Assembly: GCF_028464065.1 (NCBI RefSeq)
Contig: NZ_CP116808.1
Coordinates: 2,249,501 to 2,313,500, forward strand
Length of the DNA stretch: 64,000 nucleotides
DNA from: Saprospira sp. CCB-QB6
GTDB lineage: Bacteria; Bacteroidota; Bacteroidia; Chitinophagales; Saprospiraceae
Reading direction: 5' to 3'
Below the pieces are notes generated by a model. The model did no database searches. It was not told the DNA's origin and saw only the letters and a program-made list of their open reading frames with translations. A program made the translations under genes and the position numbers. This document shows, piece after piece, positions 8,324-62,414 of the stretch; position 1 is the stretch's first letter; every line of letters begins with the position of its first letter.

Positions 8324-8457
8324 GGGGCCTCCTGCCCAACTTGGCCTTTGGCCAAGACGGGCAGGCGCTACGTTCCGCAGCTCGCTGTTCGCTCGGCCCT
8401 GCGCCAGCAAGCTGGCTAGGTCTGGCGCTTCGCGCCACTGCTGCACATCGCTAGGCC
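8324..8457 (+). repeat. Dispersed structured repeat R1 (type 1)
   Basis: First of 21 copies of one intergenic family. Type 1 layout: GGGGCCTCC, a hairpin arm, GCTACG, GCTCGCTGTTCGCTCGGCCCT (core, 8381-8401), a variable hairpin, GGTCTGG, a second variable hairpin, and an end close to CATCGCTAGGCC. Variable arms here are GCCAGCAAGCTGGC and GGCGCTTCGCGCC. Preceded by a T-rich stretch, as in nearly all copies. Open frames across it are by-products of its GC-rich composition. Confidence 0.85.
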
Positions 8458-8540
8458 TCCTTATAAAAAGCAGAGCCTTGCTTTTATCTTCTTTTAATTG
8501 CTCTTCCTTGTTTAGCTAGCTAATGGGCCAGAAGCCCCTT

Positions 8541-8661
8541 GGCCTAGCGCTGTGGAGGGGGGCGGCAAAGCCGCCGACCCAGCCGCTTTAGCGGCGCAGG
8601 GCCGAGCAGACCTGCGAGCCCCGCAACATAGCGCCGACGAGCGCAGCGAGGCGGAGGCCCC
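8541..8661 (-). repeat. Dispersed structured repeat R2 (type 1)
   Basis: Type 1 element on the minus strand, facing R1, so that the GGGGC ends are outermost (8324 and 8661). Hairpin arms are GGCGGCAAAGCCGCC and GCCGCTTTAGCGGC. Core AGGGCCGAGC is present. Together R1 and R2 fill most of the 440-base rpoB-rpoC gap. Confidence 0.85.
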
Positions 8662-8731
8662 AAAAGAATATAAAAGTCTATCCTATTAAATGCCTCTTGC
8701 TGGCCCCTAGCCAGCCTAAATTTGTCTTCTT

Positions 8732-11700
8732 ATGCCATTTAAGAAAAATAGTACCAACAAAATTAAAAACGACTTCGATAGCATCACGCTAAGTTTGGCC
8801 TCTCCAGATTTGATTTTGGAGCGTTCTTACGGGGAAGTCCTCAAGCCAGAAACCATCAACTACCGCTCGTATAAGCCCGAGCGCGATGGTCTTTTCTGCG
8901 AACGTATCTTTGGCCCTGTCAAGGATTATGAATGTTTTTGTGGAAAATACAAGCGTATCCGTTATAAAGGAATCGTTTGTGACCGCTGTGGAGTAGAAGT
9001 GACCGAAAAGAAAGTGCGCCGTGAACGCATGGGGCATATCCGCCTAGTTGTTCCTGTGGTACATATTTGGTACTTCAAGTCTTTGCCCAATAAAATTGGT
9101 TACCTACTCGGTTTCTCTTCTAAGAAACTGGAGTCTATTATTTACTACGAGCGCTATGTGGTGATTCAGCCTGGTGCCGTAGCAGAAAGAGGAATTACAG
9201 GTAGTGAAGAGCGTGATTTGCTCACAGAAGAAGAGTATCTCGATATTTTGGAGTCACTTCCTCGCGAAAACCAAATGTTGCCCGATGATGATCCCAATAA
9301 GTTCATTGCTAAAATGGGTGCAGAAGGTGTTCGTCATCTTCTTTCTCGTGTAGATTTGGAGAAATTATCTTATGATCTACGCCATAAAGCCGCCACAGAA
9401 AACTCTCAGCAGCGTAAATCAGAAGCGCTTAAGCGTCTTCGCGTTGTAGAGGCGTTCCGTGAGGGCCAAAAAAATATTGAAAACAAGCCCGAGTGGATGG
9501 TTATTGACTATCTGCCCGTTATTCCACCAGAACTCCGTCCTCTAGTGCCTCTAGATGGTGGTCGTTTTGCTTCTTCAGATCTCAATGACCTTTATCGTCG
9601 TGTGATCATTCGTAACAACCGTTTGAAGCGTCTACTTGAAATCAAGGCGCCTGAGGTAATTCTTCGCAATGAAAAGCGGATGTTGCAAGAGGCGGTGGAT
9701 TCACTTTTCGATAACTCTCGTAAGTCTAATGCGGTTAAGGCAGAAGGTGGTCGCGCCCTCAAGTCATTGAGTGATGTACTCAAAGGTAAGCAGGGACGTT
9801 TCCGTCAGAACCTTTTGGGTAAGCGTGTTGACTACTCTGGTCGTTCGGTTATCGTGGTAGGGCCTACGCTCAAATTGCATGAGTGTGGATTACCTAAAAA
9901 CATGGCAGCTGAGCTCTTCAAGCCATTTGTGATTCGCAAATTGATTGAGCGAGGTATCGTGAAAACTGTAAAATCAGCCAAGAAATTGGTTGATCGTAAA
10001 GATCCAATTATTTGGGACATTTTGGAGAATGTGCTTAAAGGGCATCCAGTTCTCCTCAACCGGGCTCCCACACTTCACCGTTTGTCAATTCAGTCGTTCC
10101 AGCCTACACTAATTGAAGGAAAAGCGATTCAGCTTCACCCTCTTGTTTGTTCGGCCTTTAATGCGGATTTTGATGGTGACCAAATGGCGGTACACGTACC
10201 CTTGAGCAATCAAGCTATTTTGGAAGCCCAGATTTTGATGCTTTCTGCACACAATATGCTCAACCCTCAGAATGGTACGCCGATCACGCTGCCTTCTCAG
10301 GATATGGTTTTGGGTCTCTATTATATTACAAAGGAGCGTAAGCATATTCCAGAAAACCCTGTAAAAGGGGAGGGAAGTAGATTCTATTCTCCAGAAGAGG
10401 TAATCATTGCTTACAATGAAGGTCGTTTGGACCTACACGCAATCATTAAAGTTCGTGTTCCTGTAGAGGATGAAGAAGGAAACTTGGTTATCCGTCTTAC
10501 AGAGACAACAACTGGTCGCGTACTCTTCAATCAAGTTCGTCCTAAGAGCTTGCCCTATATGGATGAGCTACTTTCTAAGAAGAATTTGAAGCGCGTAATT
10601 GCAGATATCTTGAAAAGAACAAACGTGCCTACGGCGGCCAAGTTCTTGGATGATATTAAGGATATGGGATTCTACTGGGCTTATCGTGGTGGTTTGTCTT
10701 TCAACCTTCCCGATTTGATCACGCCTACTGTTCGTGCCGAACGCCTACAAGCTGCTCATGAAGTAGTAGATGGTATTTGGGATAACTACAACATGGGATT
10801 GATTACCAATAACGAGCGCTATAACCAGATCATTGATGAATGGACCCAGGCGGATAACTACATCACCAATACTTTGATGAAGGAGATGGCAGAACACAAG
10901 CAAGGGTTTAACTCAGTATACATGATGCTTGATTCTGGAGCTCGTGGTTCTAAACAGCAGATTAAGCAGCTTTGTGGTCTTCGTGGTCTAATGGCCAAGC
11001 CTCGTAAATCTGGTGATACTGGAGGGGCAATTATTGAAAACCCGATTCTTTCAAACTTTGTAGCGGGACTTTCGGTACTAGAGTACTTTATCTCTACCCA
11101 CGGTGCCCGTAAAGGTTTGGCGGATACGGCCCTTAAAACAGCGGATGCGGGTTACTTGACTCGTCGTCTTGTTGATGTGGCTCAAGATGTGGTGGTTAAT
11201 ATTTACGATTGTGGAACACTCCGTGGTGTTGAAGTTAGCGCCTTGGTAGAAAATGACAAAATCGTTCAACCCCTTTCTGAGCGCATTGAAGGTCGCTTCC
11301 CACTTTATGATATCTTCCATCCTGAAACAGAAGAGTTGATTGCTTCAGCAGAAGAAGTGATTACTCCTGAATTGGCTAAGGAAATTGAAGAAGCAGAAGT
11401 AGAAGCCGTAGAAGTTCGTTCGGTACTTACCTGCGAAGCTCGCCGAGGTTGTTGTGCTATGTGCTATGGTAAAAATACGGCCACAGGACGTGCTTCAGAG
11501 CAAGGGGATGCTGTGGGTATTATCGCTGCCCAGTCTATTGGTGAACCGGGTACTCAGCTCACACTGCGTACCTTCCACGTAGGGGGTGTAGCTTCATATA
11601 CTGCGGAAGAATCTGAACTTCGCTCTAAGTTTGAAGGTCGCCTAGAGTTTGACTCTGTAACTACCGTTGAACTTTATGATAAGGAGAAAGATGAAAAACG

Positions 11701-12994: not shown

Positions 12995-13022
12995 GCAGTA
13001 TCTTGACTACTTAACTATATAG

Positions 13023-13055
13023 AGGTCCACTTCTTTAAGAAGTGGGCCTTTTTTT
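13023..13055 (+). terminator. Terminator of the rpoBC transcript
   Basis: 12-bp stem AGGTCCACTTCT / AGAAGTGGGCCT with one G-T pair and a three-base loop, followed by seven T. It sits 28 bases after the rpoC stop and ends the cluster. Confidence 0.85.
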
Positions 13056-13069
13056 GTGCATTTTAGAGG

Positions 13070-13218
13070 GGGCGAAGCCGCCGCAAAGGAGCGAAGCGAC
13101 GCGGCTGAGGGATGGGCAGCAGTGGCCGAAGGCCAGACCTAGCCAGCTTGCTGGCGCAGGGCCGAGCGAATAGCGAGCTGCGAAACAGCCCGACCTGAGC
13201 GAAGCGAGGGGCAGCCCC
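13070..13218 (-). repeat. Dispersed structured repeat R3 (type 2)
   Basis: Type 2 copy, minus strand. Type 2 elements begin GGGGCTGCCCC, carry GTCGGGCTGT before the shared core GCTCGCTGTTCGCTCGGCCC, and end near CCATCCCTCAGCC. Arms here: GGCGAAGCCGCC, GGCCGAAGGCC, GCCAGCTTGCTGGC. It lies between convergent rpoC and the E1 gene. Confidence 0.85.
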
Positions 13219-13286
13219 AAAATAAAAACAGGAAGAACGACTAGAATCGCTCCTCCTGTTTTGCGTTAAGCTAAAGACTTATTGGC

Positions 13287-15698: not shown

Positions 15699-16089
15699 AT
15701 ATAGTTGTCTATTTAATATGCTAAAATCAAGCAGAAGAACTACCGCTGTTAAATGTAGTTTTTTTGCCTGTTTTGTGACATCCTAAAAGTTGGGTTAGCC
15801 AAAAAATAGGACATCTGTATTAAGATGTTGTTTGGGCCTTAAAATACAAAAAAAAGGAGGCAGGCAGCTATTCCACTGCATTTTTCGCATAGACAAACAA
15901 TAAGTTTAATAATGAGTTTACAAAAAAAAAGGCTTTGGCACGGCAGTTGGAAATGCTAGTAATCAATGGCTATTACCGTTTTATTGATTATTAACTAAAC
16001 TTTTAGTTGGTCTAATTTTCAAAATTGCTAAAAAAAGCCTACTATTGTATAGAACATTCTGCTCATCTTAAATTAAAATCGAGAATTAT
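15699..16089. other. Divergent intergenic region, no gene seen
   Basis: 391 AT-rich bases between the divergent E1 and DUF1573 genes. No open frame, repeat or strong hairpin. It must hold both promoters. The best guess on the plus strand is TACTATTG near 16041, one mismatch from the Bacteroidota -7 box TAnnTTTG, but no matching -33 box at the right distance was found. Confidence 0.5.
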
Positions 16090-16579: not shown

Positions 16580-16710
16580 GGGGCCCGCGGCCGGCTCGGC
16601 TTCGCCTCGGTCGGCCGCCGCTATGCTGCGGGGCTCGCAGGTCTGTTCGGCCCTGCGCCGGCTGCGCCGGCTGGGTCTGGCCTGCGGCCACCCCTCCGCA
16701 GCGCTGGGCC
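16580..16710 (+). repeat. Dispersed structured repeat R4 (type 3)
   Basis: Type 3 copies begin GGGGCCCGCGGCC, contain GCCGCTATGCTGCGGGGCTCG before the core and end CCTCCGCAGCGCTGGGCC. Hairpin arms here are GCCGGCTGCGCCGGC and GGCCTGCGGCC. Core has TTCGGCCCT rather than CTCGGCCCT. Between convergent genes. Confidence 0.85.
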
Positions 16711-16804
16711 AATGGACCATTTTGCCCAAAGCTGTTTTGGACCACAAAAAAATGCGTCATACAAAGTTGTACAACGCATTTTACTATTTTCCGATTAGTT
16801 GAGC

Positions 16805-18938: not shown

Positions 18939-19088
18939 GGCGGCGAAGCCGCCGCAAAGGCGCGTAGCGCCTCGGCTGAGGGATGGACAGCAGTGGCCGA
19001 AGGCCAGACCAAAGCGCGTAGCGCTGCAGGGCCGAGCGAATAGCGAGCTGCGAAACAGCCCGACCCGCCCTGTGGGCGGGGCAGCCCC
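18939..19088 (-). repeat. Dispersed structured repeat R5 (type 2)
   Basis: Minus-strand type 2 copy. Arms GGCGGCGAAGCCGCC, GGCCGAAGGCC, GCGCGTAGCGC and CCCGCCCTGTGGGCGGG. Ends GGGGCAGCCCC followed by nine A. Sits ten bases from the stop of the DUF3137 gene. Confidence 0.85.
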
Positions 19089-19097: not shown

Positions 19098-20006
19098 TTA
19101 GTGACGCAAATCAAAGTCTTCTACCAATTGGGTAAAGACAAAAAGCTCCTCATAATAGGCTGAAATCAACTCAAAATCGACATTGGTGCTAAATAGATGG
19201 GCATCCAATAATTCATAGGGTTCGGCTACCGCCAAATAAAAATGGCTTCCCATAAAAGAGGCGTAAATTTCTTGGCCCGAACGTTCGTGATAGCTGTTGA
19301 GGGTATTGAGCAAGTCAGGGGTTAAAATGTCCTCATATTTCATTTTTCGGTCAATATAAACCAGAAAGTCCTCATCAAAGCGAGGGTTGCCCGTATCCTT
19401 GAGCTCATAACCGCCATAACGCGTGAGCCGCTTGAAGGTCCGAATGAATTTTTGGGCTTGTACTCTAGGGATAATGACCATTTGGCCCTCTGCCCGAAAG
19501 TTGAATTTGGTGTGAAAAAAGACCCCATTGAGCCAAGTTTCCAAACGGTCTGTTACATCAGAAGTATGCATGACTTTGAGCTCACACATCTCAAAATAAA
19601 CCTCCCCAATTTTGCCCATGATATAATCTTCTCCGCTATAAATATGCGGATTGAAGGGGAATATATGCGCTCGATTAAAGCTATCCTTGGGAATGAAATC
19701 CTTATGATAATAGCGCAAACGAGGATCAATAAATTGCAAAATAGACTGCACCACTAAGGGCTTAAAACGAGATTTGAAGCGATCGATCCAACGCAGAAAA
19801 AAGTTGTAGATAAACCAATAGGGCAAAATGAGCAGGAAAATAATGGGGAAAAGCTCAAAGGCCAAAACCGCCAAAACCAAACCCAATCCAGTCAATATCG
19901 CTAATCCAATACTAATGATGAGGGCCCAACGCTGCCGCTCAAATGCTTGCAAATCAGCATGCAGATGATTGTTGTAGTAGCGACGAAATTCTTGGAGCTC
20001 TTGCAT
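19098..20006 (-). CDS. DUF3137 family membrane protein
   Basis: 302 residues. A short N-terminal helical part (1-25) is followed by two adjacent membrane helices (about 27-50 and 52-72), then a long cytoplasmic domain. The domain shows the DUF3137 features: a SGEDYIMGKIGEVYFEMCEL segment near 124, FHTKFNFRAEGQMVIIP near 164 and the C-terminal MGSHFYLAVA. Function is unknown in the family. It is divergent from the Nramp-like gene with only 81 bases between the starts. Confidence 0.72.
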   Translation of the reverse strand: MQELQEFRRYYNNHLHADLQAFERQRWALIISIGLAILTGLGLVLAVLAFELFPIIFLLILPYWFIYNFFLRWIDRFKSRFKPLVVQSILQFIDPRLRYYHKDFIPKDSFNRAHIFPFNPHIYSGEDYIMGKIGEVYFEMCELKVMHTSDVTDRLETWLNGVFFHTKFNFRAEGQMVIIPRVQAQKFIRTFKRLTRYGGYELKDTGNPRFDEDFLVYIDRKMKYEDILTPDLLNTLNSYHERSGQEIYASFMGSHFYLAVAEPYELLDAHLFSTNVDFELISAYYEELFVFTQLVEDFDLRH

Positions 20007-21591: not shown

Positions 21592-21702
21592 GGGGCCTCC
21601 TGCCTTCGGCAGGCGCTACGTTTCGCAGCTCGCTGTTCGCTCGGCCCTGCAGCGCTACGCGCTTTGGTCTGGCCTGCGGCCACTGCTACACATCGCTAGG
21701 CC
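21592..21702 (+). repeat. Dispersed structured repeat R6 (type 1)
   Basis: Compact type 1 copy of 111 bases with arms CCTGCCTTCGGCAGG, AGCGCTACGCGCT and GGCCTGCGGCC, ending CATCGCTAGGCC. Preceded by eight T. A useful reference for the minimal element. Confidence 0.85.
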
Positions 21703-22458: not shown

Positions 22459-22594
22459 GGCGGGCGCAGCCCGCCTGGCCTAGCGATGTGCAGGGGTGGC
22501 CGAAGGCCAGACCCAGGCGGCAAAGCCGCCGCAGGGCCGAGCGAGCAGCGAGCCCCGAAACGTAGCGCCGACGAGCAGAGCGAGGCGGAGGCCC
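22459..22594 (-). repeat. Dispersed structured repeat R7 (type 1)
   Basis: Minus-strand type 1 copy in a divergent promoter region. Arms GCGGGCGCAGCCCGC, GGCCGAAGGCC and GGCGGCAAAGCCGCC. Ends GGAGGCCC followed by A-rich DNA. Confidence 0.85.
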
Positions 22595-22627
22595 AAAAAT
22601 AATAAAAGAAAAAAACATACGGTAAGG

Positions 22628-29070: not shown

Positions 29071-29217
29071 GGGGCCTCCCGCCTTCGGCGGGCGCTACGC
29101 TTCAGGGCTCGCTGTTACTTGCTTCGCTGCGTCGGCTCCCGTTGGTCGGGTCGCTCGGCCCTGCGGCCTGACGGCCTTGGTCTGCGGCTTCGCCGCCCCC
29201 TTTCGCATCGCTAGGCC
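29071..29217 (+). repeat. Dispersed structured repeat R8 (type 1)
   Basis: Type 1 copy with arms CCCGCCTTCGGCGGG, GGCCTGACGGCC and GCGGCTTCGCCGC. The core is interrupted: about 38 extra bases separate GCTCGCTG from GCTCGGCCCT. Ends CATCGCTAGGCC. Confidence 0.8.
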
Positions 29218-29420: not shown

Positions 29421-29680
29421 GCCTATAGGATAGAAACTTTGCCCCTAAGGGCCAATACACAAAATTATGTCTGGGCCTAATTGACCAATAGAGCCAAACA
29501 AAAAGCCCCCTCCAAGGAGGGGGCGACTACTACTATTAGCCTAGGGGCTTGCCCCTAGGGTAAAATGACAAGCGCTTAAATACAAGGGTTTTCAATATGT
29601 TGTTTTTAAGCCCTTTTAGCTAAACTGTTGTAGGGTCGGTCCAGAAAAAAAAGATAGGGCCTTATACAGCTATCCCAAGC
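29421..29680. other. Non-coding stretch before the 41-bp array
   Basis: 260 bases with no credible reading frame. It contains the minus-strand terminator-like hairpin at 29505-29524 and a second perfect hairpin CCTAGGGGC-TT-GCCCCTAGG at 29540-29559. Nothing else recognisable. Confidence 0.6.
29500..29524 (-). terminator. Minus-strand terminator downstream of the 41-bp array
   Basis: 9-bp GC-rich stem GCCCCCTCC / GGAGGGGGC with a two-base AA gap. Read on the minus strand it is followed by TTTTTGTTTGG, an intrinsic terminator. The thioredoxin gene to the right already has its own terminator at 30400-30435, so this one seems to serve a separate minus-strand transcript. Confidence 0.6.
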
Positions 29681-30125
29681 TAATCGGAAAAATCCAAACG
29701 GCCTGGGGAATTTCCCCACGTTAATCGGAAAAATCCAAACGGCCTGGGGAATTTCCCCACGTTAATCGGAAAAATCCAAACGGCCTGGGGAATTTCCCCA
29801 AGCTAATCGGAAAAATCCAAACGGCCTGGGGAATTTCCCCACGTTAATCGGAAAAATCCAATCGCCATGGGGGATTTCCCCAAGCTAATCGGAAAAATCC
29901 AAACGGCCTGGGGAATTTCCCCAAGCTAATCGGAAAAATCCAAACGGCCTGGGGAATTTCCCCACGTTAATCGGAAAAATCCAAACGCCTTGGGGAATTT
30001 CCCCAAGCTAATCGGAAAAATCCAAACGCCATGGGGGATTTCCCCACGCTAATCGGAAAAATCCAAACGCCTTGGGGAATTTCCCCACGCTAATTTGCCG
30101 CCTCCGATTGCCATGGGGAAATCCT
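29681..30125. repeat. Tandem array, ten 41-bp units plus a degenerate eleventh
   Basis: Units start at 29681, 29722, 29763, 29804, 29845, 29886, 29927, 29968, 30009 and 30050, each exactly 41 bases, with a degenerate remnant at 30091-30125. Each unit begins TAATCGGAAAAATCCAAACG and contains TGGGGAATTTCCCCA, a 7-bp inverted repeat with a one-base centre. Unit-to-unit differences are confined to the base pairs around the palindrome and to the last four bases (ACGT, AAGC or ACGC). 41 is not a multiple of three, and stops occur in every frame on both strands, so the array is non-coding. There are no spacers, so it is not CRISPR. Confidence 0.95.
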
Positions 30126-30136
30126 TAGAGGAGATG

Positions 30137-30169
30137 GGAAGCTAAACTTTGGTCCAAATCAGCAGCAAA
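30137..30169 (-). promoter_or_regulatory. Possible minus-strand promoter reading into the 41-bp array
   Basis: On the minus strand TTTG (30169-30166), 21 bases, TAGCTTCC (30144-30137). The -33 box is exact; the -7 box has two mismatches to TAnnTTTG. Transcription from here to the terminator at 29500 would give an RNA of about 620 bases spanning the whole array. Weak on its own; the paired terminator makes it worth recording. Confidence 0.25.
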
Positions 30170-30255: not shown

Positions 30256-30380
30256 GGCTGAGGGATGGTAGCGGGTGGCCGAAGGCCAGACCAAGCTTTT
30301 GAGCGCAGCGAAAAAGCGCAGGGCCGAGCGAATAGCGAGCCCGCGCACAGCCCGACCCGACCGAAGGGAGGGGCAGCCCC
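30256..30380 (-). repeat. Dispersed structured repeat R9 (type 2)
   Basis: Minus-strand type 2 copy, ending GGGGCAGCCCC. Arms GGCCGAAGGCC and CTTTTGAGCGCAGCGAAAAAG. An extra hairpin GGCTGGGG-GAA-CCCCAGCC lies just before it at 30233-30251. R9 separates the array from the thioredoxin terminator. Confidence 0.85.
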
Positions 30381-32805: not shown

Positions 32806-32951
32806 GGGGCTGCCCCTCCCTGCGGTCGGGTCGGGCTGTGCGGGGGCTCGCAGTTCTGCTCGGCCCTTCGCTTTTTCGCTGTGCTCAAAAGCTCGGTCTG
32901 GCCTTCGGCCACCCCCTACCATCCCTCAGCCGATGCGGGCGCTTCGCGCCC
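32806..32951 (+). repeat. Dispersed structured repeat R10 (type 2)
   Basis: Plus-strand type 2 copy. Arms CTTTTTCGCTGTGCTCAAAAG-like (imperfect), GGCCTTCGGCC and GGGCGCTTCGCGCCC; contains CCATCCCTCAGCC. It lies upstream of the thioredoxin gene and 20 bases from the rdgB stop. Confidence 0.85.
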
Positions 32952-35645: not shown

Positions 35646-35742
35646 GGCGGCGAAGCCGCCGCAGGCCACAACAAACCCTTTAGGGGGCAGTTCGACGACC
35701 AAAGGGAGTAACCGCCGACGAGCGCAGCGAGGCGGAGGCCCC
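35646..35742 (-). repeat. Degenerate structured repeat R11 (type 1)
   Basis: Only the ends match: GGCGGCGAAGCCGCC and the distal GACGAGCGCAGCGAGGCGG with GGCCCC. The core AGGGCCGAGC has been replaced by unrelated sequence (about 35666-35710). The most decayed copy in the window. Confidence 0.7.
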
Positions 35743-37322: not shown

Positions 37323-37553
37323 GGGCTGCCCCTCCCGCCGAGTTGAAACCCAGTGCAAAGCGGTATCGCTTTGCGAAGCTATACAAAATGAGGGTTAACA
37401 CCCTCATGAGTTTTCGCTCGGGTCGGGCTCTGTCGTGGCTCGCTGTTCGCTCGGCCCTTCACAAAATTTCGCTGCGCTCATTTTGCTCGGTCTGGCCTTC
37501 GGCCACCACTTTCCATCCCTCAGCCTGCGGGCGCAAAGCGCCCTGTCCACCGC
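37323..37553 (+). repeat. Dispersed structured repeat R12 (type 2, long form)
   Basis: 231-base type 2 copy. Compared with short copies it has an extra segment of about 75 bases between GGGCTGCCCC and GTCGGGCT. That segment contains a hairpin GCAAAGCG-GTAT-CGCTTTGC (37355-37374) and a palindrome ATGAGGGT-TAAC-ACCCTCAT (37388-37407). Further arms: AAAATTTCGCTGCGCTCATTTT-like, GGCCTTCGGCC, GGGCGCAAAGCGCCC. The same long form is R18. Confidence 0.85.
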
Positions 37554-44161: not shown

Positions 44162-44281
44162 GGGGCCCGCGGCCAGCAAAGCTGGCCGCCGCTATGCTGC
44201 GCCGCTCGCAGGTCTGCTCGGCCCTGCGTCGCTTTGCTCCTTGGTCTGGCGCTTCGCGCCACGGCTGCGCAGCGCTGGGCC
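44162..44281 (+). repeat. Dispersed structured repeat R13 (type 3)
   Basis: Type 3 copy with arms GGCCAGCAAAGCTGGCC and GGCGCTTCGCGCC, ending CAGCGCTGGGCC. Faces R14; the outer ends are 338 bases apart. Confidence 0.85.
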
Positions 44282-44329
44282 GCTCATCTATCTTTTTTCT
44301 TTTGGCCTTCTTCTTCGGCCGCTAATTTT

Positions 44330-44371
44330 ATGAGGGTTTCAACCCTCATTTATATATTATTGCGAAGCAAT
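44330..44371. repeat. Palindrome plus hairpin between R13 and R14
   Basis: ATGAGGGTT-TC-AACCCTCAT (44330-44349), then ATTGC-GAA-GCAAT (44359-44371). The same two-part module, with the order reversed, occurs at 29252-29294. Confidence 0.85.
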
Positions 44372-44390
44372 ACCATTATCGGCTTAGGGA

Positions 44391-44499
44391 TGGATAGGGG
44401 GGCGGCGCAGCCGCAGACCAAGGCGCTTTGCGCCGTAGGGCCGAGCAGAACTGCGAGCCCCGACACAGCCCGGCCCGCCCAAAGGGCGGGCAAGCCCCC
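44391..44499 (-). repeat. Dispersed structured repeat R14 (type 2)
   Basis: Minus-strand copy with arms GGCGGCGCAGCCGC, GGCGCTTTGCGCC and CCCGCCCAAAGGGCGGG. Ends CAAGCCCC followed by A-rich DNA; 40 bases upstream of the histidine-kinase start. Confidence 0.85.
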
Positions 44500-44538
44500 A
44501 AAAAAATGTAAATTCGTTGAGATTTTACCCATGTTATT

Positions 44539-46785
44539 ATGCCATATATTATTCCCCTCTTGCTCCTCTTTCTGAGCATTACCTATTGTCCTGCCCAAAC
44601 GGCTAGAATTGATAGTTTGTTGGCTGTAGCGCCTAGCGACCTAGAACAAGAGTTTATTCGCTATGAAGAGCTGATTAAGGCTTATGCGAGTATAGATAGC
44701 AGCCCTGCGCAATTATACTATATCCAAAAGGGGCAAGAGCGGGCCAAAGCCACAAAAAGCTGGGGGAAGTTGGCCGATTTTTGGGCGCAAAAAGGCCAGT
44801 TTTATCTAAAAAAAGATAGCTTACTGCAGGCAATGGAAGCTTTTGATAAAAGCCTAAAAATTAGCCGAACCCAACTGCAAGCCAATCAGGTCAATCAATA
44901 CCTTTATATCAATATTGGTAATCTCTATTTTCAAAAGGGCTATTGGACCGAGGCCAATCAGCATTTTAATTATGCCTTAGAAGGCTTTTTGAATAAAGAT
45001 GATTCGAGTGGAATCAATCTATCTTATCGAAATAAGGCCCTAGTATTTAACCGATTACGGCAGTTTGATTCGGTGATTTATTATACCAATTTAGCCCTGC
45101 CGTATATTCATGAAAATCAGTTGGAAGAGCAATTTTGGGCCTTGAGTTTATTGGGAACTGCCCATTCGGGCAAAGAGGAGTATAATAAGGCTTATTATTA
45201 TAAAGAAAAAGCGCTAGACTTGGCCCAAGAACATACAGAGGCTTTGGGGCAGTTGATCGGCTATGCACATTATAGTTTGGGTTATGTAGACTTTAAATTG
45301 GAGAACTACGAGCAGGCTATTCCACATTTTCAAACGGCTTTGCCTTATTATATGCCTAGGGATTTCAATGCGCTCTGGCAATTGATTCGCTGCCAAACTG
45401 CTGCGGGCCAACTCCAAGCAGCCAAAGAAAGCTTTGCCCCTTTTAAGGAAAAATATGCCTATCTCTTGGCCGACTCTATCCAAAATGATCCCAAACGAGA
45501 TCTTTATCTCTTGGCTAGTCAAGCTATTGCCGAAGCGGAAGGAGATTATAAAAAGGCTTTTGAATTGGTCAAAAAGATCAATAAAGATCTGCGCGAAGAA
45601 AGTCGAAAGGAAAAAGATAAAGACCAACTCATCCGTCTTGGACAATTGGCCTTTTCGCTGCGCAAGGATATTGAGCTGAAAAACCAAGAGCAGCAATTGA
45701 GCCATGAAAAAGAAGTTCGAGCGCAAAAAGAACGCCTTAACCAACTATATTTTTTGGGGCTGCTCATGCTGTTGCTGCTCTTGTTTGCTGGAACTTGGCT
45801 CTATTGGCAATTGGCCCAAAATCGAAAACTGCTGCATCAGAGCTATGCCGATTTACAAGAATATAGCGAAAATCAAGATGAGCTCTATGCCATTTTGGCC
45901 CATGATCTCCGCCGCCCTTTTGGCAACCTGCTAAGCGTCAACCAACGCCTGGCAGCTAGCCTCAATCAAAAAAAAGAAGGGGAATTGGCCCGAAAAGCAG
46001 AAGGGGCCAGCCAAGAACTCTATTTCCTTTTTGAGGACCTGCTCTCTTGGATCAAAGAACAAAATCAAGGCATTCAGGCCAACTACCATTATCATAGTTG
46101 GGCACAACTACAAGCCGATTTATTGGCGCCTCTTCAACTGGCCTTAGAGGAAAAAAATATTCAACTCCAAATCCGTACGGAGCTGTCAGAACTTTATACG
46201 GATAGCTATTTGCTCAATACCATTTTGCGCAACCTCTTGGCCAATGCTATTCGCTTTTCGCCCAAAGCAGGGCAAATTAGCTTGATTATTCAACAGAAAG
46301 ATAATTACTACCAAATCCAGTTGCAGGATCAAGGACCAGGTTTATCAGAAGAACAAATAGCCGCCTTATTTACCCCAAATAAAAAGGCCAAAAATGGCTT
46401 GGGCCTCCCCCTCGCTCAAAAGTTTGTCCAGCTGCTCGGCGGAGAAATAGAACTGCTATCTTCCTCTTCTACAGGACTCTGTTTTCAAATTAGCTTGCCG
46501 AAGCAAAGCCATAAAAACACTCAAGAAATACAAGAAGAAACCTTATCTTTTGCCAAGCCGTCTCCCCAACAACGCGCTCAAAATTATGATCCTAAGCTAT
46601 TGGCCCTTTTGGCTAAATTGCAAGCCCATCAAGTAGGGCAACTTTACGCCTTACAGCAAACTTATGCCCAAGACGCTTTTTTAAGAGAGGCCCTAAATGA
46701 ACTACTCGAATTGCCTTTTAGTGGAGAGGCCAACCGCTTTGAGGAAAAAAAAGCGGCTTTGCTACAGCAACTCCAACGACTTTAA
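44539..46785 (+). CDS. TPR sensor histidine kinase
   Basis: 748 residues. Signal peptide 1-20, a periplasmic TPR region (about 30-350; for example YLYINIGNLYFQKGYWTEAN and YAHYSLGYVDFKLENYEQAI), a coiled coil (about 355-400), one membrane helix (403-425), then the kinase. H box with phospho-acceptor His455 (ILAHDLRRPFGNLL), N box LNTILRNLLANAIRFSPKAG, G1 DQGPGLSEEQIAALF and G2 NGLGLPLAQKFVQLLGG. After the ATPase domain an extra tail of about 100 helical residues follows. The response regulator starts at the next base after its stop, so the two form a two-component pair. Confidence 0.9.
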   Translation: MPYIIPLLLLFLSITYCPAQTARIDSLLAVAPSDLEQEFIRYEELIKAYASIDSSPAQLYYIQKGQERAKATKSWGKLADFWAQKGQFYLKKDSLLQAMEAFDKSLKISRTQLQANQVNQYLYINIGNLYFQKGYWTEANQHFNYALEGFLNKDDSSGINLSYRNKALVFNRLRQFDSVIYYTNLALPYIHENQLEEQFWALSLLGTAHSGKEEYNKAYYYKEKALDLAQEHTEALGQLIGYAHYSLGYVDFKLENYEQAIPHFQTALPYYMPRDFNALWQLIRCQTAAGQLQAAKESFAPFKEKYAYLLADSIQNDPKRDLYLLASQAIAEAEGDYKKAFELVKKINKDLREESRKEKDKDQLIRLGQLAFSLRKDIELKNQEQQLSHEKEVRAQKERLNQLYFLGLLMLLLLLFAGTWLYWQLAQNRKLLHQSYADLQEYSENQDELYAILAHDLRRPFGNLLSVNQRLAASLNQKKEGELARKAEGASQELYFLFEDLLSWIKEQNQGIQANYHYHSWAQLQADLLAPLQLALEEKNIQLQIRTELSELYTDSYLLNTILRNLLANAIRFSPKAGQISLIIQQKDNYYQIQLQDQGPGLSEEQIAALFTPNKKAKNGLGLPLAQKFVQLLGGEIELLSSSSTGLCFQISLPKQSHKNTQEIQEETLSFAKPSPQQRAQNYDPKLLALLAKLQAHQVGQLYALQQTYAQDAFLREALNELLELPFSGEANRFEEKKAALLQQLQRL

Positions 46786-47640
46786 ATGAGCATTATGCAA
46801 AAGAAGATTCTCCTTGTCGATGACCAACCCCAAAATCTACATCAGGTCCTTAAAGCCCTCTACCCTAAAAAAGAGGAATACGAACTCTCTTTTGCCCCCA
46901 ATGGCGCCCAAGCTTTGGCACTGCTAGAAGATCTAAAGGTAGACCTCATTCTACTAGATTGGGAAATGCCCCTGATGGATGGTATCCAAACACTAGAAGC
47001 CCTTAAAAAAGAGGAGCGCTGGGCCAATATTCCCGTTATCATGTACACTGGGGTGCATACGGCTAGCCAAGCGCTACAAAAGGCCTTTGATTTAGGAGCT
47101 ATCGACTTTTTGCGCAAACCCGTAGACGAAACCGAATTGCTGGCCCGTATCCAAAATATTTTTTATATCCAGCAAACGCATGCACTGGAGCAAGAACGAA
47201 ATGAACTGGCCCTCAGCCTGAAACGCAAGGAGCTTTTGCATTATGCCATCTGGCTACAAGAAAAAAATGGCTTCCTCCAAAGCTTTGAACAAAAACTAAG
47301 CAGTTACCTACAAAAAAAATTACCCTACGATAAAGAAGGCCAAAGCCTCCTGCGCGAATTAGAACAGGAAATTGCCATCAAAAGTAAATGGGAAAACCTC
47401 CGCCAACAGGCCGATAATATTCACCAAGCTTTCATCCGCCGCTTTGAAGAGTCGCATCCCCAACTCTCCGCTGGCGATATCAAACTGGCCACCCTCATCC
47501 GCATCAAACAAACAAATCAAGAAATTGCAGATACCCCGGCCATCGCACTGAGCTCGGTAAGCAAAAAGAAGTTACGCTTACGCGATAAACTGGGCTTTGC
47601 TTCTGCTGCCGAACTAGAGGCGCATATTTTGACCTTTTAA
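46786..47640 (+). CDS. Response regulator with C-terminal helix-turn-helix
   Basis: 284 residues. Receiver domain 5-125: acidic pocket Asp12/Asp13, phospho-acceptor Asp58 (LILLDWEMPLMDG), Thr in MYTGVH and Lys in LRKPVDE. A long charged coiled coil follows (about 125-215). The C-terminus has a LuxR-like helix-turn-helix: LSAGDIKLATLIRIKQTNQE, then IADTPAIALSSVSKKKLRLR. The HTH and coiled coil resemble the cytoplasmic end of TPR-linked regulators common in this phylum. Zero bases separate it from the kinase; an internal ATG four codons in is the alternative start. Confidence 0.88.
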   Translation: MSIMQKKILLVDDQPQNLHQVLKALYPKKEEYELSFAPNGAQALALLEDLKVDLILLDWEMPLMDGIQTLEALKKEERWANIPVIMYTGVHTASQALQKAFDLGAIDFLRKPVDETELLARIQNIFYIQQTHALEQERNELALSLKRKELLHYAIWLQEKNGFLQSFEQKLSSYLQKKLPYDKEGQSLLRELEQEIAIKSKWENLRQQADNIHQAFIRRFEESHPQLSAGDIKLATLIRIKQTNQEIADTPAIALSSVSKKKLRLRDKLGFASAAELEAHILTF

Positions 47641-47648
47641 ATTATTCT

Positions 47649-47767
47649 GGGGCCCGCGGCCAGCAAGCTGGCCGCCGCTATGCTGCGGGGCTCACAAGAC
47701 TGTTCGGCCCTGCGCAGGCGACGCCGGCTTGGTCTGGCCTTCGGCCACCCCTCCGCAGCGCTGGGCC
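47649..47767 (+). repeat. Dispersed structured repeat R15 (type 3)
   Basis: Type 3 copy with arms GGCCAGCAAGCTGGCC and GGCCTTCGGCC; core TTCGGCCCT. Starts nine bases after the response-regulator stop and faces R16. Confidence 0.85.
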
Positions 47768-48022: not shown

Positions 48023-48155
48023 GGGCCGAAGGCCCGCAGGCTTAGGGATGGATAGGGGGGCGGCGAAGCGGCAGACCAAGGAGCAAAGCGACGCAGGGCC
48101 GAGCAGACCTGCGAGCCCCGACACAGCCCGGCCCGCCCAAAGGGCGGGAAAGCCC
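48023..48155 (-). repeat. Dispersed structured repeat R16 (type 2)
   Basis: Minus-strand copy, arms GGGCCGAAGGCCC, GGCGGCGAAGCGGC (imperfect) and CCCGCCCAAAGGGCGGG. Very close in sequence to R14. Forms the right half of the R15/R16 pair. Confidence 0.85.
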
Positions 48156-48196
48156 AAAAAAAATAAACCCTCAAAGATTAGATAGCTTCCCTAGCC

Positions 48197-50278: not shown

Positions 50279-50388
50279 GGCCCAGCGCTGCGGAGGGGTG
50301 GCCGAAGGCCAGACCGAGCCGGCTTCGCCTGCGCAGGGCCGAACAGTCTTGTGAGCCCCGCAGCGTAGCGCAGCGCAGCTGAGGCCCC
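50279..50388 (-). repeat. Dispersed structured repeat R17 (type 3)
   Basis: Minus-strand type 3 copy in a divergent region. Begins GGCCCAGCGCTGCGGAGGGG, arm GGCCGAAGGCC, core AGGGCCGAA, ends GAGGCCCC followed by A-rich DNA. The CCGGCTTCGCC arm is decayed on one side. Confidence 0.85.
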
Positions 50389-53890: not shown

Positions 53891-54110
53891 GGGGCTGCCC
53901 CTTCCGCCAGCTTGAACGCCAGCGCAAAGCGGTATCGCTTTGCGAAGCTCTACAAAATGAGGGTTAAAACCCTCATGAATTATCGGGCGGGTCGGGCTGT
54001 TCCGGGCTCGCTGTTCGCTCGGCCCTTCGCCAGCTTTGCTGCCTCGGTCTGGCCCTACGGGCCACTGCTGTCCATCCCTCAGCCTGCGGCCCTTCGGGCC
54101 TGTCCACCGC
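53891..54110 (+). repeat. Dispersed structured repeat R18 (type 2, long form)
   Basis: 220-base type 2 copy, the closest match to R12. It shares the inserted module of about 75 bases: GCAAAGCG-GTAT-CGCTTTGC (53924-53943) and ATGAGGGTT-AA-AACCCTCAT (53957-53976). Arms include GGCCCTACGGGCC and GGCCCTTCGGGCC. Confidence 0.85.
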
Positions 54111-55687: not shown

Positions 55688-55704
55688 CCCTATTCGTCTA
55701 GAGT

Positions 55705-55856
55705 GGGCCCGAAGGGCCCGCAAAGGAGCGTAGCGACGCGGCTGAGGGATGGAGAGGGTGGCCCGTAGGGCCAGACCGAGGCAGCAAAGCTGCCGAAGGG
55801 CCGAGCGAATAGCGAGCCCGGAACAGCCCGACCCGGCCGTTGGCCGGGGCAGCCCC
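55705..55856 (-). repeat. Dispersed structured repeat R19 (type 2)
   Basis: Minus-strand copy between hemA and hemC. Arms GGGCCCGAAGGGCCC, GGCCCGTAGGGCC, GGCAGCAAAGCTGCC and CCGGCCGTTGGCCGG. Ends GGGGCAGCCCC followed by A-rich DNA. It sits inside what would otherwise be an ordinary operon gap. Confidence 0.85.
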
Positions 55857-55911
55857 AAAAAAAGAAATAGAAAAACTTCAGTATCTTGGCGGCGAACAGA
55901 ATAAATAGAAT

Positions 55912-57428: not shown

Positions 57429-57436
57429 GAGATAAG

Positions 57437-59749: not shown

Positions 59750-59933
59750 AATTTTGAGTTTACAGCTAGCAAGTTCAAAAAAAAATAGGACAATGCCCCT
59801 TACAGCATTGCCCTATTCTAAAAAATCTAGTTCATTCTTGTTGTGTTATAGTTGCTCCTTACTTCAACTACACTTTTACAAACGCTTCCTTTCTCAAAAG
59901 GGTGGGGTAGCTTTTCCCTTTTTCTTCTTTTTT

Positions 59934-60088
59934 GGGGCTGCCCCGCCCTGCGGGCGGGTCGGGCTGTGTCGTGGCTCGCAGGCCTGCTCGGCCCTGCGGC
60001 GGCAAAGCCGCCTAGGTCTGGCCCTTCGGGCCACCACTTTCCATCCCTCAGCCGAGGCGCTGCGCGCCTTGTCGGCGGCTTCGCCGCC
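59934..60088 (+). repeat. Dispersed structured repeat R20 (type 2)
   Basis: Plus-strand type 2 copy between porZ and the TPR/PD40 gene. Arms CCCGCCCTGCGGGCGGG, GGCGGCAAAGCCGCC, GGCCCTTCGGGCC and GGCGGCTTCGCCGCC, all perfect. Confidence 0.85.
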
Positions 60089-60096
60089 TATCTGGA

Positions 60097-60132
60097 CCAA
60101 AAAAGCGCCCCAAACTACCGTTTGGGGCGCTT
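60097..60132 (-). terminator. Terminator of the TPR/PD40 gene
   Basis: 13-bp perfect stem AAGCGCCCCAAAC / GTTTGGGGCGCTT with a four-base loop. On the minus strand it is followed by TTTTGGTCC. Confidence 0.85.
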
Positions 60133-60143
60133 AGGGCCTTCTT

Positions 60144-62162
60144 CTATTTTGCAATCAGAGGCAAAACAGCAGGAATACTTTGGTCCTCATAGGCCTGCAT
60201 GGTCGCTACAGGAAGATTCCCGCCATAAAAACCAGCAGCTTCTGCTCGGATAATATACTTTTGATCTGGACGCAAAGGCAAACTGATTTTACCATTGGCA
60301 TCAGCTGTAAAGCGCTCTTCACTGCCATCTAACAAATTGGTCAAAACAATACTCGCCTGCCCAATGCCTTTTTGGTTGCTTTTCTGCACCACCTGCAAAT
60401 CAACAGTCAATTTCACTTTGACATCATCTTTGGTCTCCAACATGGGCGGATCTCCTTCTGTATTTTCATAGTTGTAGGGATCTTTCTCTGTTGCTGTATT
60501 TTCTCCATTGGGATCTACTTCAGGATCTTCAGGAAGAGCCCAAGGATTATAATCAGGATCATCTGGATCTTTAGGCTCATTTGGATCGCTCCAAGTTCCG
60601 TCAATTTGCCCATTATCCACCACTGCATCAGGATCAAAATTATCTGGGCTATTGGGGTTGGGGCTAGGTTGGCCTCCAGTTTCTTCATTTCCGTCAAGCT
60701 CTCCACCATCTTCTAACATGGCTAAGTCCATAGAATCCACCTTTTCTTTAGCGGTGGTTTCTTCTACGACGAAACCAGCATTGATGAGGCTGTCGATGAG
60801 TTTTTCGTCGTCGATGCCAGAATCGGCGAGGCTGTCGGTAAAATTTAGCTTTCCACGAGGGGCAATGCCAGGAGGCAAGTCCTGTGGTTCTTGTCCTGTC
60901 AAAATAAACTGATAAAGGTCGTCGCTTCCATTTCTAGAAGAAGAGAAAAAGCCTTTAGTTTGGTCGTCTCCCAATAAGAAATAAGTATCATCAAAGGCAG
61001 AGTTGAGGGGCTGGCCCAAATTCTCGGCTTCTGTCCAATCAATACCATTTCCAGTAGGTCGAGAGCGGAACAAGTCGTATCCACCATAACCAGCTTTGCC
61101 TTTAGAGGCATAATAAAGCGTGCCGTTGGGGTGGGCAAATGGAAAGGCTTCATTGGCTCGGCTATTAACGCCTTCCCCTAAGTTTTGGGGTTTAGACCAT
61201 TTATCGCCCATTTTGCGGCTCATCCAAACATCTGTTCCTCCTAATCCACCAGGCATATCCGATACAAAAAAGAGGACACGGCCATCAGCGGAGAGGCAGG
61301 GGTGCATAAATTGATAACCTTGCGTCACAAACTCTAGTACCAGGGGTTTGGTCCAATCGCCATCCACTAATTCACTGGCAAAAATTTGCAGGGTATAGGC
61401 TTCTGCCTCTGGAGTTTCCTTTACCGATCGGTTGTAAAAGCAGAGTTTTCCGTCTCGGCTAAAGCTAGCTGGACCATCATGTCGGCGGCTGCCATTGAGT
61501 TGGCGCGCAAAAGGGGCTGGTGCGGCTAGTTGTCCATCAGAGGCGAGTTCTGCAAAATAGAGATTGAGAAAAGAGCGTTCTTGCTCTCCCCAGTTGGCGC
61601 TAATATCGGCTGCTTGTATGCGGTCCGAGCTAAAGACGACCCCAGTACCATAAAAGGCAGGGCCAAATTCATCATTGATGCTATCATTGACTGCTGCCTG
61701 ATAGTTAATCTGCACATCGGGATAAACGGGAATAATCGACTCAATAGCATCTAGGCGTTTGAGTAGTTCTGCTGGGGCAGGATCTTCTGGGCGTTGGTCT
61801 GCATACTGCAAAAACTGCGAGCGAGCTTCATCGAATTTGCCCAAAGAGAGTAGAGATTGCCCGTAGGCCAGCAAAATATCGGGTCGTTCATCGGCATGGG
61901 GAAGCAGGTCCTCAAAAAGGGGCTCAGCCTTGTCTACATTGCCTGTTTCGTTATAGCTTTTGGCTAGATTGATGCGGGCGTCTACGCCCATTACACCTTG
62001 GCCAGAAGTTGTACCCATTAGAAGCTCATAAATTTCTTGAGCTTCTACATAACTCTCTTCATTAAAGAGGTTATTGGCTTTTCTAAGTTTGTTAATACGC
62101 TCTTGCCCAAAGCTGGCCCCACTAAAGGCAAAGAGCAAAAAGAGAAGTAAGTAAGTCCTCAT
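60144..62162 (-). CDS. TPR and PD40-propeller protein, PorE-like without OmpA domain
   Basis: 672 residues. Signal peptide 1-19. An N-terminal TPR region (about 20-150; ERINKLRKANNLFNEESYVE and so on) is followed by a PD40/WD40-like propeller (about 170-440; signatures HPCLSADGRVLFFVSDMPGG and AFPFAHPNGTLYYASKGK). Then comes a long acidic, Asp/Pro/Asn-rich linker (about 480-580), and a C-terminal carboxypeptidase-regulatory-like beta module (GIGQASIVLTNLLDGSEERF). This matches the first three domains of the T9SS protein PorE, but the C-terminal OmpA peptidoglycan-binding domain is absent; the protein ends at residue 672. A secretion-related or surface role is an inference. Confidence 0.78.
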   Translation of the reverse strand: MRTYLLLFLLFAFSGASFGQERINKLRKANNLFNEESYVEAQEIYELLMGTTSGQGVMGVDARINLAKSYNETGNVDKAEPLFEDLLPHADERPDILLAYGQSLLSLGKFDEARSQFLQYADQRPEDPAPAELLKRLDAIESIIPVYPDVQINYQAAVNDSINDEFGPAFYGTGVVFSSDRIQAADISANWGEQERSFLNLYFAELASDGQLAAPAPFARQLNGSRRHDGPASFSRDGKLCFYNRSVKETPEAEAYTLQIFASELVDGDWTKPLVLEFVTQGYQFMHPCLSADGRVLFFVSDMPGGLGGTDVWMSRKMGDKWSKPQNLGEGVNSRANEAFPFAHPNGTLYYASKGKAGYGGYDLFRSRPTGNGIDWTEAENLGQPLNSAFDDTYFLLGDDQTKGFFSSSRNGSDDLYQFILTGQEPQDLPPGIAPRGKLNFTDSLADSGIDDEKLIDSLINAGFVVEETTAKEKVDSMDLAMLEDGGELDGNEETGGQPSPNPNSPDNFDPDAVVDNGQIDGTWSDPNEPKDPDDPDYNPWALPEDPEVDPNGENTATEKDPYNYENTEGDPPMLETKDDVKVKLTVDLQVVQKSNQKGIGQASIVLTNLLDGSEERFTADANGKISLPLRPDQKYIIRAEAAGFYGGNLPVATMQAYEDQSIPAVLPLIAK

Positions 62163-62275
62163 AAATCGCTCATTTTTATTAGTCGCTGCTAAGTTAAGTA
62201 TTATTAAAGAAGTTCTGGTTGAACTCTTTTAAAACTTGTTTTAATCTAAGTATCTAGTGGGCTAAAGCGGCCCTA

Positions 62276-62414
62276 GCGGGCGAAGCCCGCTGGCCTAGCG
62301 CTGTGGAGGGGGGCGGCGCAGCCGCAGACCCAGCGGGCGAAGCCCGCGCAGGGCCGAGCAGCCTTGCGAGCCCCGCAACATAGCGCCGCAAGGCGAAGCC
62401 GCAGCGGAGGCCCC
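62276..62414 (-). repeat. Dispersed structured repeat R21 (type 1)
   Basis: Minus-strand type 1 copy with arm GCGGGCGAAGCCCGC present twice (62276-62290 and again near 62333), and GGCGGCGCAGCCGC. Its terminal CCCC ends at 62414, which is the last base of the stop codon of the next gene. Confidence 0.85.

Follow-up and report, generated by a model that had tools for sequence, protein, structure and literature searches.

Probable foldback intergenic repeats of alternating orientation and interchangeable arms in Saprospira sp. CCB-QB6

The 64,000-nt stretch considered here (the window; bases 2249501-2313500 of contig C1, NZ_CP116808.1) comes from the 4.24-Mb, two-contig genome of Saprospira sp. 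CCB-QB6 (G000) and its gene content includes rpoB, rpoC and a PorZ-like protein. Dispersed between its genes are copies of a structured repeat, and these belong to a family whose members mostly alternate in orientation along the chromosome, keep a branched fold while the sequence of its arms is exchanged, and for the most part occupy sites shared with a sister genome. The features of the fold point to its being formed as DNA rather than RNA. The reading preferred here, held tentatively and with slightly less than even confidence, is that these are foldback DNA repeats, formerly mobile and mostly fixed now, which recombine with inverted neighbours.

The repeat family

A covariance model (R1) was built from 40 copies (alignment A1, one row of which, window 19000-19088, is incomplete) and applied to two 464-kb samples of the genome, one made up of the window and 20 spread stretches and the other of the window and the adjoining 400 kb (contiguous). 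In the window it finds 20 full cloverleaf-like copies, besides which there is one derivative; of the 21 elements that a first-pass annotation of the letters had counted, 20 are thus full copies and the other is probably the derivative at 35664-35742 (minus strand), which has a different inner module. The sample with the spread stretches holds 159 copies, or one per 2.9 kb, the 400 kb adjoining the window holds 138, and by extrapolation the genome has about 1,450, some 4% of its DNA. That the pattern is not due to chance follows from the 236 matches in this genome to the strict form GCTCGN{20,45}TCGGCCCT, as against none to its reversed counterpart. The whole of the sampled genome has copies, as do three sister genomes and, judged by fold, other genera; neither outcome that the first-pass annotation had named as refuting, a lack of covariation in the arms or an absence of copies elsewhere in the genome, came about. 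Rfam 15, compared with the window at E up to 1, gave only a tRNA and one match far below its cut-off, and no earlier report of these repeats was found in the open-access literature.

The unit is 104–161 nt long in 134 trimmed copies (regular-expression parsing loses rows: 21 of 155 were left out of the trimming for unclear ends, and about 281 copies yielded 268 parsed for their hairpins). Its fixed blocks are a GGGGC end, GCTCGC..GCTCGGCCCT and GGTCTG, with variable hairpins between them. The central hairpin, H3, has 174 distinct forms in the 268 parsed copies, and a perfect central stem of at least 6 bp is present in 192/268 copies but in 0/268 shuffled controls, which upholds the early description of fixed blocks with interchangeable palindromic arms. 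The three end types listed with that description have proved too few, GGGGCCTGC, for instance, being present in 17 of the 134 trimmed copies.

Of the 159 copies, 82 are on one strand and 77 on the other. Gaps of at least 150 bp between open reading frames (ORFs) of at least 100 aa hold one copy or more in 30/34 convergent, 66/100 co-oriented and 19/39 divergent cases. The statement that all copies are intergenic is nearly right, the exceptions being 10 of the 159 that overlap an ORF of at least 100 aa by more than 40 bp (7 of these 10 ORFs are shorter than 150 aa). A T-run precedes the 5′ end, with T at −4 to −1 in 77, 88, 96 and 81% of copies, and the flanks of the 159 copies show no T-run at the 3′ end. 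Extra short hairpins of GCGTCGCTTCGCTCCTTTGCGGCGGCTTCGCCGCC type often lie beyond the 3′ end, as seen by eye at window 13066-13100, and a 41-bp tandem repeat array lies between two elements at window 29592-30165.

Alternation of orientation

In the contiguous 464 kb, with 158 copies, 141 of the 157 neighbour pairs alternate in orientation (p 3.6e-26). The same is true of 93/105 pairs in 18 separate stretches (L023 and L024, which overlap the contiguous sample, were dropped here and from the allele-sharing and neighbour-identity counts below) and of 135/157 in the same-genus genome G002, which is not independent of CCB-QB6. The direction of the neighbouring genes was rejected as the cause: when orientation is shuffled among single-copy gaps of equal gene arrangement, 85.9 ± 5.1 of 138 pairs alternate, with a maximum of 106, whereas 122 were observed. 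The median gap is 1.2 kb between copies whose 3′ ends face each other (‘+-’) and 3.6 kb between those whose T-runs do (‘-+’). One pair of adjacent same-orientation copies, in stretch L012 at 16689-16802 and 19398-19511, is 100% identical over a distance of 2.6 kb and is possibly a recent duplication.

Alternation recurs in other genera. It holds for 24/28 pairs in G306, at a spacing of about 7 kb, and in G052 for 49/55 when weak matches are included, as against 25/38 (p 0.07) for matches of at least 40 bits only. The weak matches are probably real, since random strands for the 17 of them never reach 49 in 20,000 trials. Three further genomes have too few pairs to judge (G018 1/3, G288 2/4, G014 1/1). 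Five gene adjacencies are conserved with G052 or G306, and the two of these that hold an element hold it in CCB-QB6 and lack it in G052. These two informative adjacencies suggest that element sites are not common to CCB-QB6 and G052, and alternation may for this reason have arisen more than once.

Alternation is accounted for as well by directional brackets as by the recombination mechanism set out below, each copy being a boundary that acts in one direction on a DNA translocase, loop extruder, polymerase or supercoil, though as a whole this explanation seems doubtful. Pairs with their T-runs facing in would then enclose gene domains of 2–5 kb, or about 7 kb in a second genus, regardless of gene direction, alternation would be a functional code, the fold would be read as single-stranded or extruded DNA, and the sequence would drift through partner exchange. 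The independence from gene direction and the recurrence in G306 and, with its weak matches, G052 are what such brackets would give, and blocks are bracketed at both ends (58) or at neither (38) more often than at one (16). Set against this are the result for the stronger G052 matches taken by themselves, the fact that no binding protein was identified, and the lack of any match in G003 (63% complete) or G004, of the same genus, which shows that such a code can be dispensed with. If brackets they were, they would be a bacterial counterpart of oriented loop anchors in logic only.

A branched fold supported by covariation

The ends of the unit pair with each other, as GGGGCTG with CAGCC, GGGGCCT with AGGCC or GGGGCCC with GGGCC. 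Inside the resulting end stem S1 (GGCCY with RGGCC) are a side hairpin H1, a stem S2 with mismatches, a 4-bp stem S3, the hairpins H2 and H4, and a GGCC/GGUC helix that encloses H3, the whole arrangement being derived from a column scan and a structure count. Alignment A1 was made by sequence and the structure drawn from its own columns, while alignments A2–A6 were fitted to a model, so that their pair counts lean to the structure; A1 and a count of S3 in raw sequence are independent of this. In the 40 rows of A1, 91.4% of cells are paired compared with 74.1% after shuffling, and the covariation score is 0.402 compared with 0.137 (0/500 shuffles reach it), the structure slid along the alignment giving 0.034–0.121. 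For the 138 CCB-QB6 copies the score is 0.479 against 0.141 shuffled, and for 49 copies from other genera 0.356 against 0.108. In none of the three alignments does any of the 500 shuffles or any slid control attain the real score. A lesser measure, the count of further pair types, does not stand out in the two alignments from CCB-QB6, being reached by 113/500 and 102/500 shuffles. The covariance model and the statistical test of covariation had been suggested in the first-pass annotation, and its proposal of one structured intergenic family, with arms that vary while pairing is kept, stands.

S3 is fully paired in 123/154 copies in the raw sequence, where the shuffled mean is 50 and the maximum 68, and its partners include GCAG/CTGC, GGGG/CCCC, AGGG/CCCT, GTGG/CCAC, GCGG/CCGC, CGGG/CCCG and GCCG/CGGC. 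As it spans H2, H3 and H4, local copying of a single hairpin cannot explain it. The GGCC/GGTC pairing is nearly invariant within the genus and covaries across genera: in the 49 matches from seven other genera, which keep the fold with different sequences, its G-U position is GU in 33, GC in 7, CG in 1 and other in 2.

Folding as DNA or as RNA

Wobble pairs are expected to be common in evolving RNA. In S1, S3, H2, H3 and H4 only 13 G-U and 18 A-C are present in 3,242 cells (142 rows). H1 has 20 G-U and 2 A-C, leaning to the top strand, S2 has 7 G-U and 49 A-C, as for the bottom strand or a misregister, and the GGCC/GGUC helix has a fixed G-U; across the helices of these rows the wobble intermediates do not lie on one consistent strand. 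The loops of H4 read TNC or TNNC on the top strand, which is C(GNA)G or C(GNNA)G on the bottom, in 249/278 cases and the reverse in none, while H3 is less strict, with GNA or GNNA on the bottom strand in 93/263 and the reverse in 1 (about a dozen copies from overlapping stretches are counted twice in these figures). d(GNA) triloops whose closing pair is C-G are described as a known family of stable DNA loops (PMC5815330). The top strand gives the more stable fold in only 12/100 copies when DNA energies are used, and in 41/100 with RNA energies. The rarity of wobble in most helices and the restriction of the H4 GNA/GNNA loops to the bottom strand point to a fold formed as DNA rather than RNA.

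A structured RNA acting in transcripts, through control in 3′ or 5′ untranslated regions, processing or termination, is on this evidence unlikely. Strong covariation in three alignments is what it would predict; so are the replacements of the fixed GU of the GGCC/GGUC helix (8 of 43 cells from other genera become GC or CG), the G-U excess of H1 and the occupancy of convergent gaps, which are the richest in copies. It is opposed not only by the scarcity of wobble elsewhere, the disagreement of the helices as to strand and the bottom-strand loops of H4, but also by the T-run, which comes before the 5′ end and not after the 3′ end, and by the gene on the 5′ side, which points towards (79) or away from (70) the copy about equally. 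Intrinsic terminators were rejected: no T-run follows the top-strand fold, and the bottom strand ends in A-rich sequence because the T-run lies before the fold.

Old sites with fast turnover of content

Between CCB-QB6 and G002, whose chained DNA is 86% identical, 120 of the 158 copies in the contiguous sample are at the same place and in the same orientation, and 31 of the other 38 fall in intervals that do not align or whose length differs. In the window 18/20 copies have a G002 counterpart (one counterpart is common to two window copies, and the copy at 30256 is matched by one flank). Where CCB-QB6 has the pairs 44162/44381 and 47649/48039, G002 has a single pair. Between these similar convergent pairs a 3.3-kb two-gene segment (window 44319-47649) is absent from G002 and G005, and can be read as gained or lost via recombination between the pairs.

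While the sites are shared, the arms at them swap wholesale and jointly, as in the rpoB-rpoC gap and at compared sites 6, 12 and 14. None of 51 orthologous copies is identical to its counterpart. In these 51, both sides have changed with pairing kept in 289 base pairs, one side has changed in 106, and both sides have changed in another way in 21; for S3 the first two classes number 54 and 8, and for H4 44 and 0. Of the 120 mapped pairs 106 were usable for comparing hairpins, and in these H3 is unchanged in 8, H4 in 19, H2 in 22 and S3 in 55, random paralogues sharing H3, H4, H2 and S3 in 0.7, 5, 13 and 29%. Flipping of whole hairpins was rejected as the main source of new arms (0/106 pairs), though one flip between G002 and G005 was seen by eye.

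The inner domain as a whole can also differ. A second interchangeable module, GGTTACTCCC..GGTCGTCGAACTG..TTGTTGT, with a variable hairpin of its own, is inserted into the inner domain or substitutes for it at window 35664-35742 and at 13 places in the contiguous 464 kb. The window site is occupied by a full copy in G001, G002 and G005, all of the same genus, and at 126045 the order is reversed, with a cloverleaf in CCB-QB6 and a GGTTACTCCC-type module in G002.

Exchange between copies

An H3 allele that is unlike that of the orthologue is nevertheless present elsewhere in CCB-QB6 in 55/98 cases, and copies with such a recurring allele also share H4 in 22%, where 6% is expected. H3 is common to 11.3% of 106 pairs of T-run-facing neighbours and 5.3% of 113 pairs of 3′-facing neighbours, compared with 1.0% of random pairs. 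Identity of at least 0.9 is reached by T-run-facing pairs in 1/7 at 0.7–2 kb, 7/63 at 2–4 kb and 3/44 beyond 4 kb, and by 3′-facing pairs in 0/41 below 0.7 kb and in 2/50, 1/23 and 0/6 in successively wider distance classes. For adjacent same-orientation copies the figure is 1/28, for second neighbours 3/192, for third neighbours 0/162 and for random pairs 0.9%. The lack of similar pairs closer than 0.7 kb is as expected if long perfect palindromes are unstable. The early suggestion of selection or copying at the level of structure is thus right, and copying between paralogues at fixed sites forms part of it.

Three regions of the contiguous 464 kb are inverted between CCB-QB6 and G002. One, of 29.5 kb (278069-307605 in contiguous coordinates, L145–L147), has a ‘-’ copy 30 bp from one end and a ‘+’ copy 23 bp from the other; of the remaining two, one is closely flanked by a copy at a single end and one has ‘+’ copies at both ends. 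Of 104 ends of synteny blocks 60 are no more than 60 bp away from a copy, as against 8.2% of the sequence, an enrichment due in part to the copies themselves aligning badly.

The mechanism we envisage would begin with an ancient spread of non-autonomous elements, inserted beside T-runs by a putative enzyme, the bottom strand folding into a branched cloverleaf of S1, H1, S2, S3, H2, H3 and H4. Later there would be no detectable movement, and copies would recombine with each other, chiefly with the nearest inverted copy, when single-stranded in replication or repair. A conversion tract covering both arms would swap a whole hairpin, or the inner domain, and so give new sequence with pairing intact, while tracts that break pairing would be weeded out by selection for the fold. 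A crossover between neighbouring inverted copies would merely invert the genes between them, whereas adjacent direct copies would delete essential genes; alternation may be kept because adjacent direct copies are purged in this way as they delete core genes.

Several observations sit badly with this mechanism. The excess of similar T-run-facing neighbours is weak in G002, with 0/36 pairs at 2–4 kb and 1/22 above reaching identity of 0.9, and only one of the three inverted regions has close inverted copies at both ends in CCB-QB6. Conversion spreads arms without making them and leaves the origin of the 174 H3 alleles unexplained. No enzyme, clean empty site or target duplication was found (10 unmatched sites inspected). 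Recombination does not account for the spacing asymmetry between ‘+-’ and ‘-+’ pairs. Copies of equal orientation often lie 3–5 kb from each other (the full set of pairs includes 36 ‘++’ and 31 ‘--’), so deletion risk would have to depend on adjacency and not on distance alone; simple distance-based avoidance of direct repeats was rejected on the same count. As to the fold, the fixed GGCC/GGUC wobble and the excess of G-U over A-C in H1 would suit top-strand RNA, and the A-C cells of S2 would be in keeping with a bottom-strand fold, whether of RNA or of DNA, or with a misregister.

Distribution in sister genomes and other genera

Within the GTDB genus, CCB-QB6, G001, G002 and G005 have at least 150 copies each, and the second small contigs (C2) of CCB-QB6, G002 and G005 also carry elements with high scores. 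The covariance model gave no match in G003 or G004. The RpoC encoded in the window shares 99% identity with its G005 counterpart and 82–83% with those of G003 and G004. With G004 synteny extends only from the window start to rpoC, with two weak matches besides; its rpoB-rpoC gap, of about 110 bp, holds no element and is too diverged for a target to be read.

Outside the genus the strict motif has 1–5 matches in five genomes, coding-like by eye and overall not above the reversed control. The covariance model, in a family-wide search with stricter filters and 59 candidates scored per genome, matches at least 12 of 61 genomes at E up to 0.001, of which 10 belong to other genera and some have a single match. 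When 150 candidates were scored in each, at least 146 matched in G018 and at least 59 in G014. Over the order at least 10 of 298 genomes, CCB-QB6 and G002 included, match at E 1e-5 with 12 candidates scored each, and the matches listed are all in the same family, in seven genera besides the own one. A second model, made from those seven genera only, finds 157 matches in the contiguous 464 kb of CCB-QB6, where the first finds 158, and none in 79 kb of G004. The elements of the other genera are taken to be true homologues.

Relation to known mobile and structured repeats

The family could be a non-autonomous mobile element of REP/RAYT or MITE type that is still spreading, which we regard as quite unlikely. 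Copy number, intergenic sites, hairpins and inverted pairs speak for it, as do three Y1 transposases in the genome and a patchy presence across genera. That there is no transposase holds for the window as regards Y1 and not for the genome; the search was limited to Y1, other transposase families not being searched for. The three Y1_Tnp loci lie among other hairpin families; at two of them a single flank carries an element copy, some 0.9 kb away from the gene, which is the usual spacing. Across 17 genomes, mostly drafts from which contigs may be missing, Y1_Tnp is present in 15, among them the element-free G003 and G004, and absent from G018 and G065, which have elements. A RAYT is accordingly not supported as the mobiliser, given the other repeats around the Y1 genes and this uncoupled presence. 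Of 73 copies unmatched between CCB-QB6 and G002 (38 and 35), 10 sites were inspected and 7 could be aligned; none is a clean empty site and, by eye, all 7 hold derivatives or remnants. With regard to MITE features, the pairing of the ends extends over 5 bp (S1) and forms part of a larger fold, and the 10 inspected sites offer no clean empty site from which a target duplication might be recognised.

The three Y1 loci are candidate REPtrons in their own right (L001, L002 and L003, at 2.877, 3.624 and 3.945 Mb of C1), with RAYT-like genes among hairpin repeats of their own: CTGTGGGTTTTAACCCACAG / GAGGGTTAAAACCCTC at the first, CCATGGGCTAAAGCCCATGG at the second, and CCTAGGGCCAAGGCCCTAGG and AATCCCCTCGAATGAGGGGAT at the third.

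Still less does the family look like the terminal repeats of gene-carrying transposons with ‘+[gene]-’ units as cargo, a very improbable model: one gene is enclosed by 21/64 convergent pairs, one pair encloses about 2.6 kb more in G002 than in CCB-QB6, and inside genes are slightly rarer in the G002 stretch (64/73 vs 175/181), but the 10 genes examined in ‘+-’ intervals (compared with 10 taken from ‘-+’ intervals) include several with housekeeping roles, namely PNPase, an Era-like GTPase, RsgA and MeaB. This sample already leans towards most pairs having core genes inside, and the model is not supported.

In integron attC sites structure rather than sequence is conserved and the bottom strand is active as single-stranded DNA, both as proposed here, though attC arrays share one orientation. 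The REP, BIME and REPIN repeats associated with RAYT are described as high-copy intergenic palindromes with stems that vary while pairing is kept, and with inverted pairs (PMC2817692, PMC3733652, PMC8266576), in which they are like the present family. The REP palindrome is of 20–50 nt, with a tetranucleotide, mostly GTAG, in front of it, whereas the elements here are longer, multi-branched, start with GGGGC-type sequence behind a T-run, have neither GTAG nor CGTC among their commonest ends and have no Y1 gene of their own adjoining. A transposase flanked by two inverted repeat copies was not seen at the three Y1_Tnp loci, and repeat presence did not follow transposase presence among the 17 genomes. 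BIMEs are reported to alternate locally in orientation (PMC2817692); here alternation is chromosome-wide, at kilobase distances and with core genes between. The REP/RAYT analogy drawn in the first-pass annotation therefore holds loosely: the family works somewhat like REP and BIME but lacks their length, tag tetranucleotide, transposase association and co-occurrence.

BOX, RUP and SPRITE of Streptococcus pneumoniae are similarly modular, structured, small interspersed repeats that move slowly now, BOX having a mean of 122 per chromosome; as they are described (PMC3049150), they differ from the present family in its compensatory turnover of arms at fixed sites and its alternation. ERIC, bcr1 and other stem-loop families are likewise intergenic with a common predicted structure, in other hosts and with other sequences, the new families described having 9 to 164 copies (PMC2267715).

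Copies in the window

Table 1. Elements of the window and anatomy of the top-scoring copy (window coordinates; scores with model R1)
Feature	Coordinates	Strand	Score or evidence
Full copy, rpoB-rpoC gap, left half of convergent pair; same site with other arms in G001, G002, G005	8324..8457	+	109.3 bits
Full copy, rpoB-rpoC gap, right half of pair	8541..8661	-	90.7 bits
Full copy	13103..13218	-	112.8 bits
Full copy	16580..16710	+	72.4 bits
Full copy	18974..19088	-	109.7 bits
Full copy	21592..21702	+	104.8 bits
Full copy; both sides of S3 jointly unlike G002 orthologue	22477..22595	-	90.6 bits
Full copy, long H2 variant	29071..29217	+	69.4 bits
Full copy; identity 0.929 to inverted neighbour at 32806	30256..30380	-	95.3 bits
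Full copy; inverted neighbour of 30256 copy	32806..32931	+	97.6 bits
Derivative; GGGGCCTCC end and H1 retained, inner domain a GGTTACTCCC..GTCGTCGAACT.. module	35664..35742	-	
Full copy, 5′ part replaced by TGAGGG..CCCTCA hairpin (by eye)	37391..37525	+	68.8 bits
Full copy, left half of convergent pair	44162..44281	+	89.7 bits
Full copy, right half of pair with 44162	44381..44498	-	109.5 bits
Full copy, left half of convergent pair	47649..47767	+	98.1 bits
Full copy, right half of pair with 47649	48039..48156	-	87.9 bits
Full copy	50279..50388	-	88.0 bits
Full copy, replaced 5′ part (by eye)	53960..54084	+	80.0 bits
Full copy; arms common to G001, unlike G002 and G005	55740..55856	-	106.9 bits
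Full copy, top score of window, anatomy exemplar	59934..60053	+	119.5 bits
Full copy	62292..62414	-	89.5 bits
Exemplar end stem S1, 5′ side, pairs with 60049-60053	59936..59940	+	covariation, fold
Exemplar hairpin H1	59942..59958	+	structure count, fold
Exemplar long-range stem S3, 5′ side, pairs with 60034-60037	59971..59974	+	raw-sequence pairing, fold
Exemplar conserved block TCGGCCCT	59988..59995	+	
Exemplar variable hairpin H3	59998..60012	+	
Exemplar conserved block GGTCTG; GGTC pairs with GGCC	60015..60020	+	covariation
Exemplar hairpin H4, bottom-strand loop GAA	60020..60032	+	loop census

Significance

The alternation of orientation, the bottom-strand loop signature, the long-range stems and the mutual pairing of the ends go beyond what had been noticed in the window at first. 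The usual view of dispersed repeats in bacteria is that they are mobile parasites or act as local regulators. In the present family an orientation grammar extends over at least 464 contiguous kb, at about one copy per 2.9 kb; two further genera show the same tendency, and a complex fold is retained while its sequence is overwritten. The system lets one ask whether repeats owe their orientation to recombination load or to chromosome organisation, and in what way paired stems come to alter both sides without visible intermediates.

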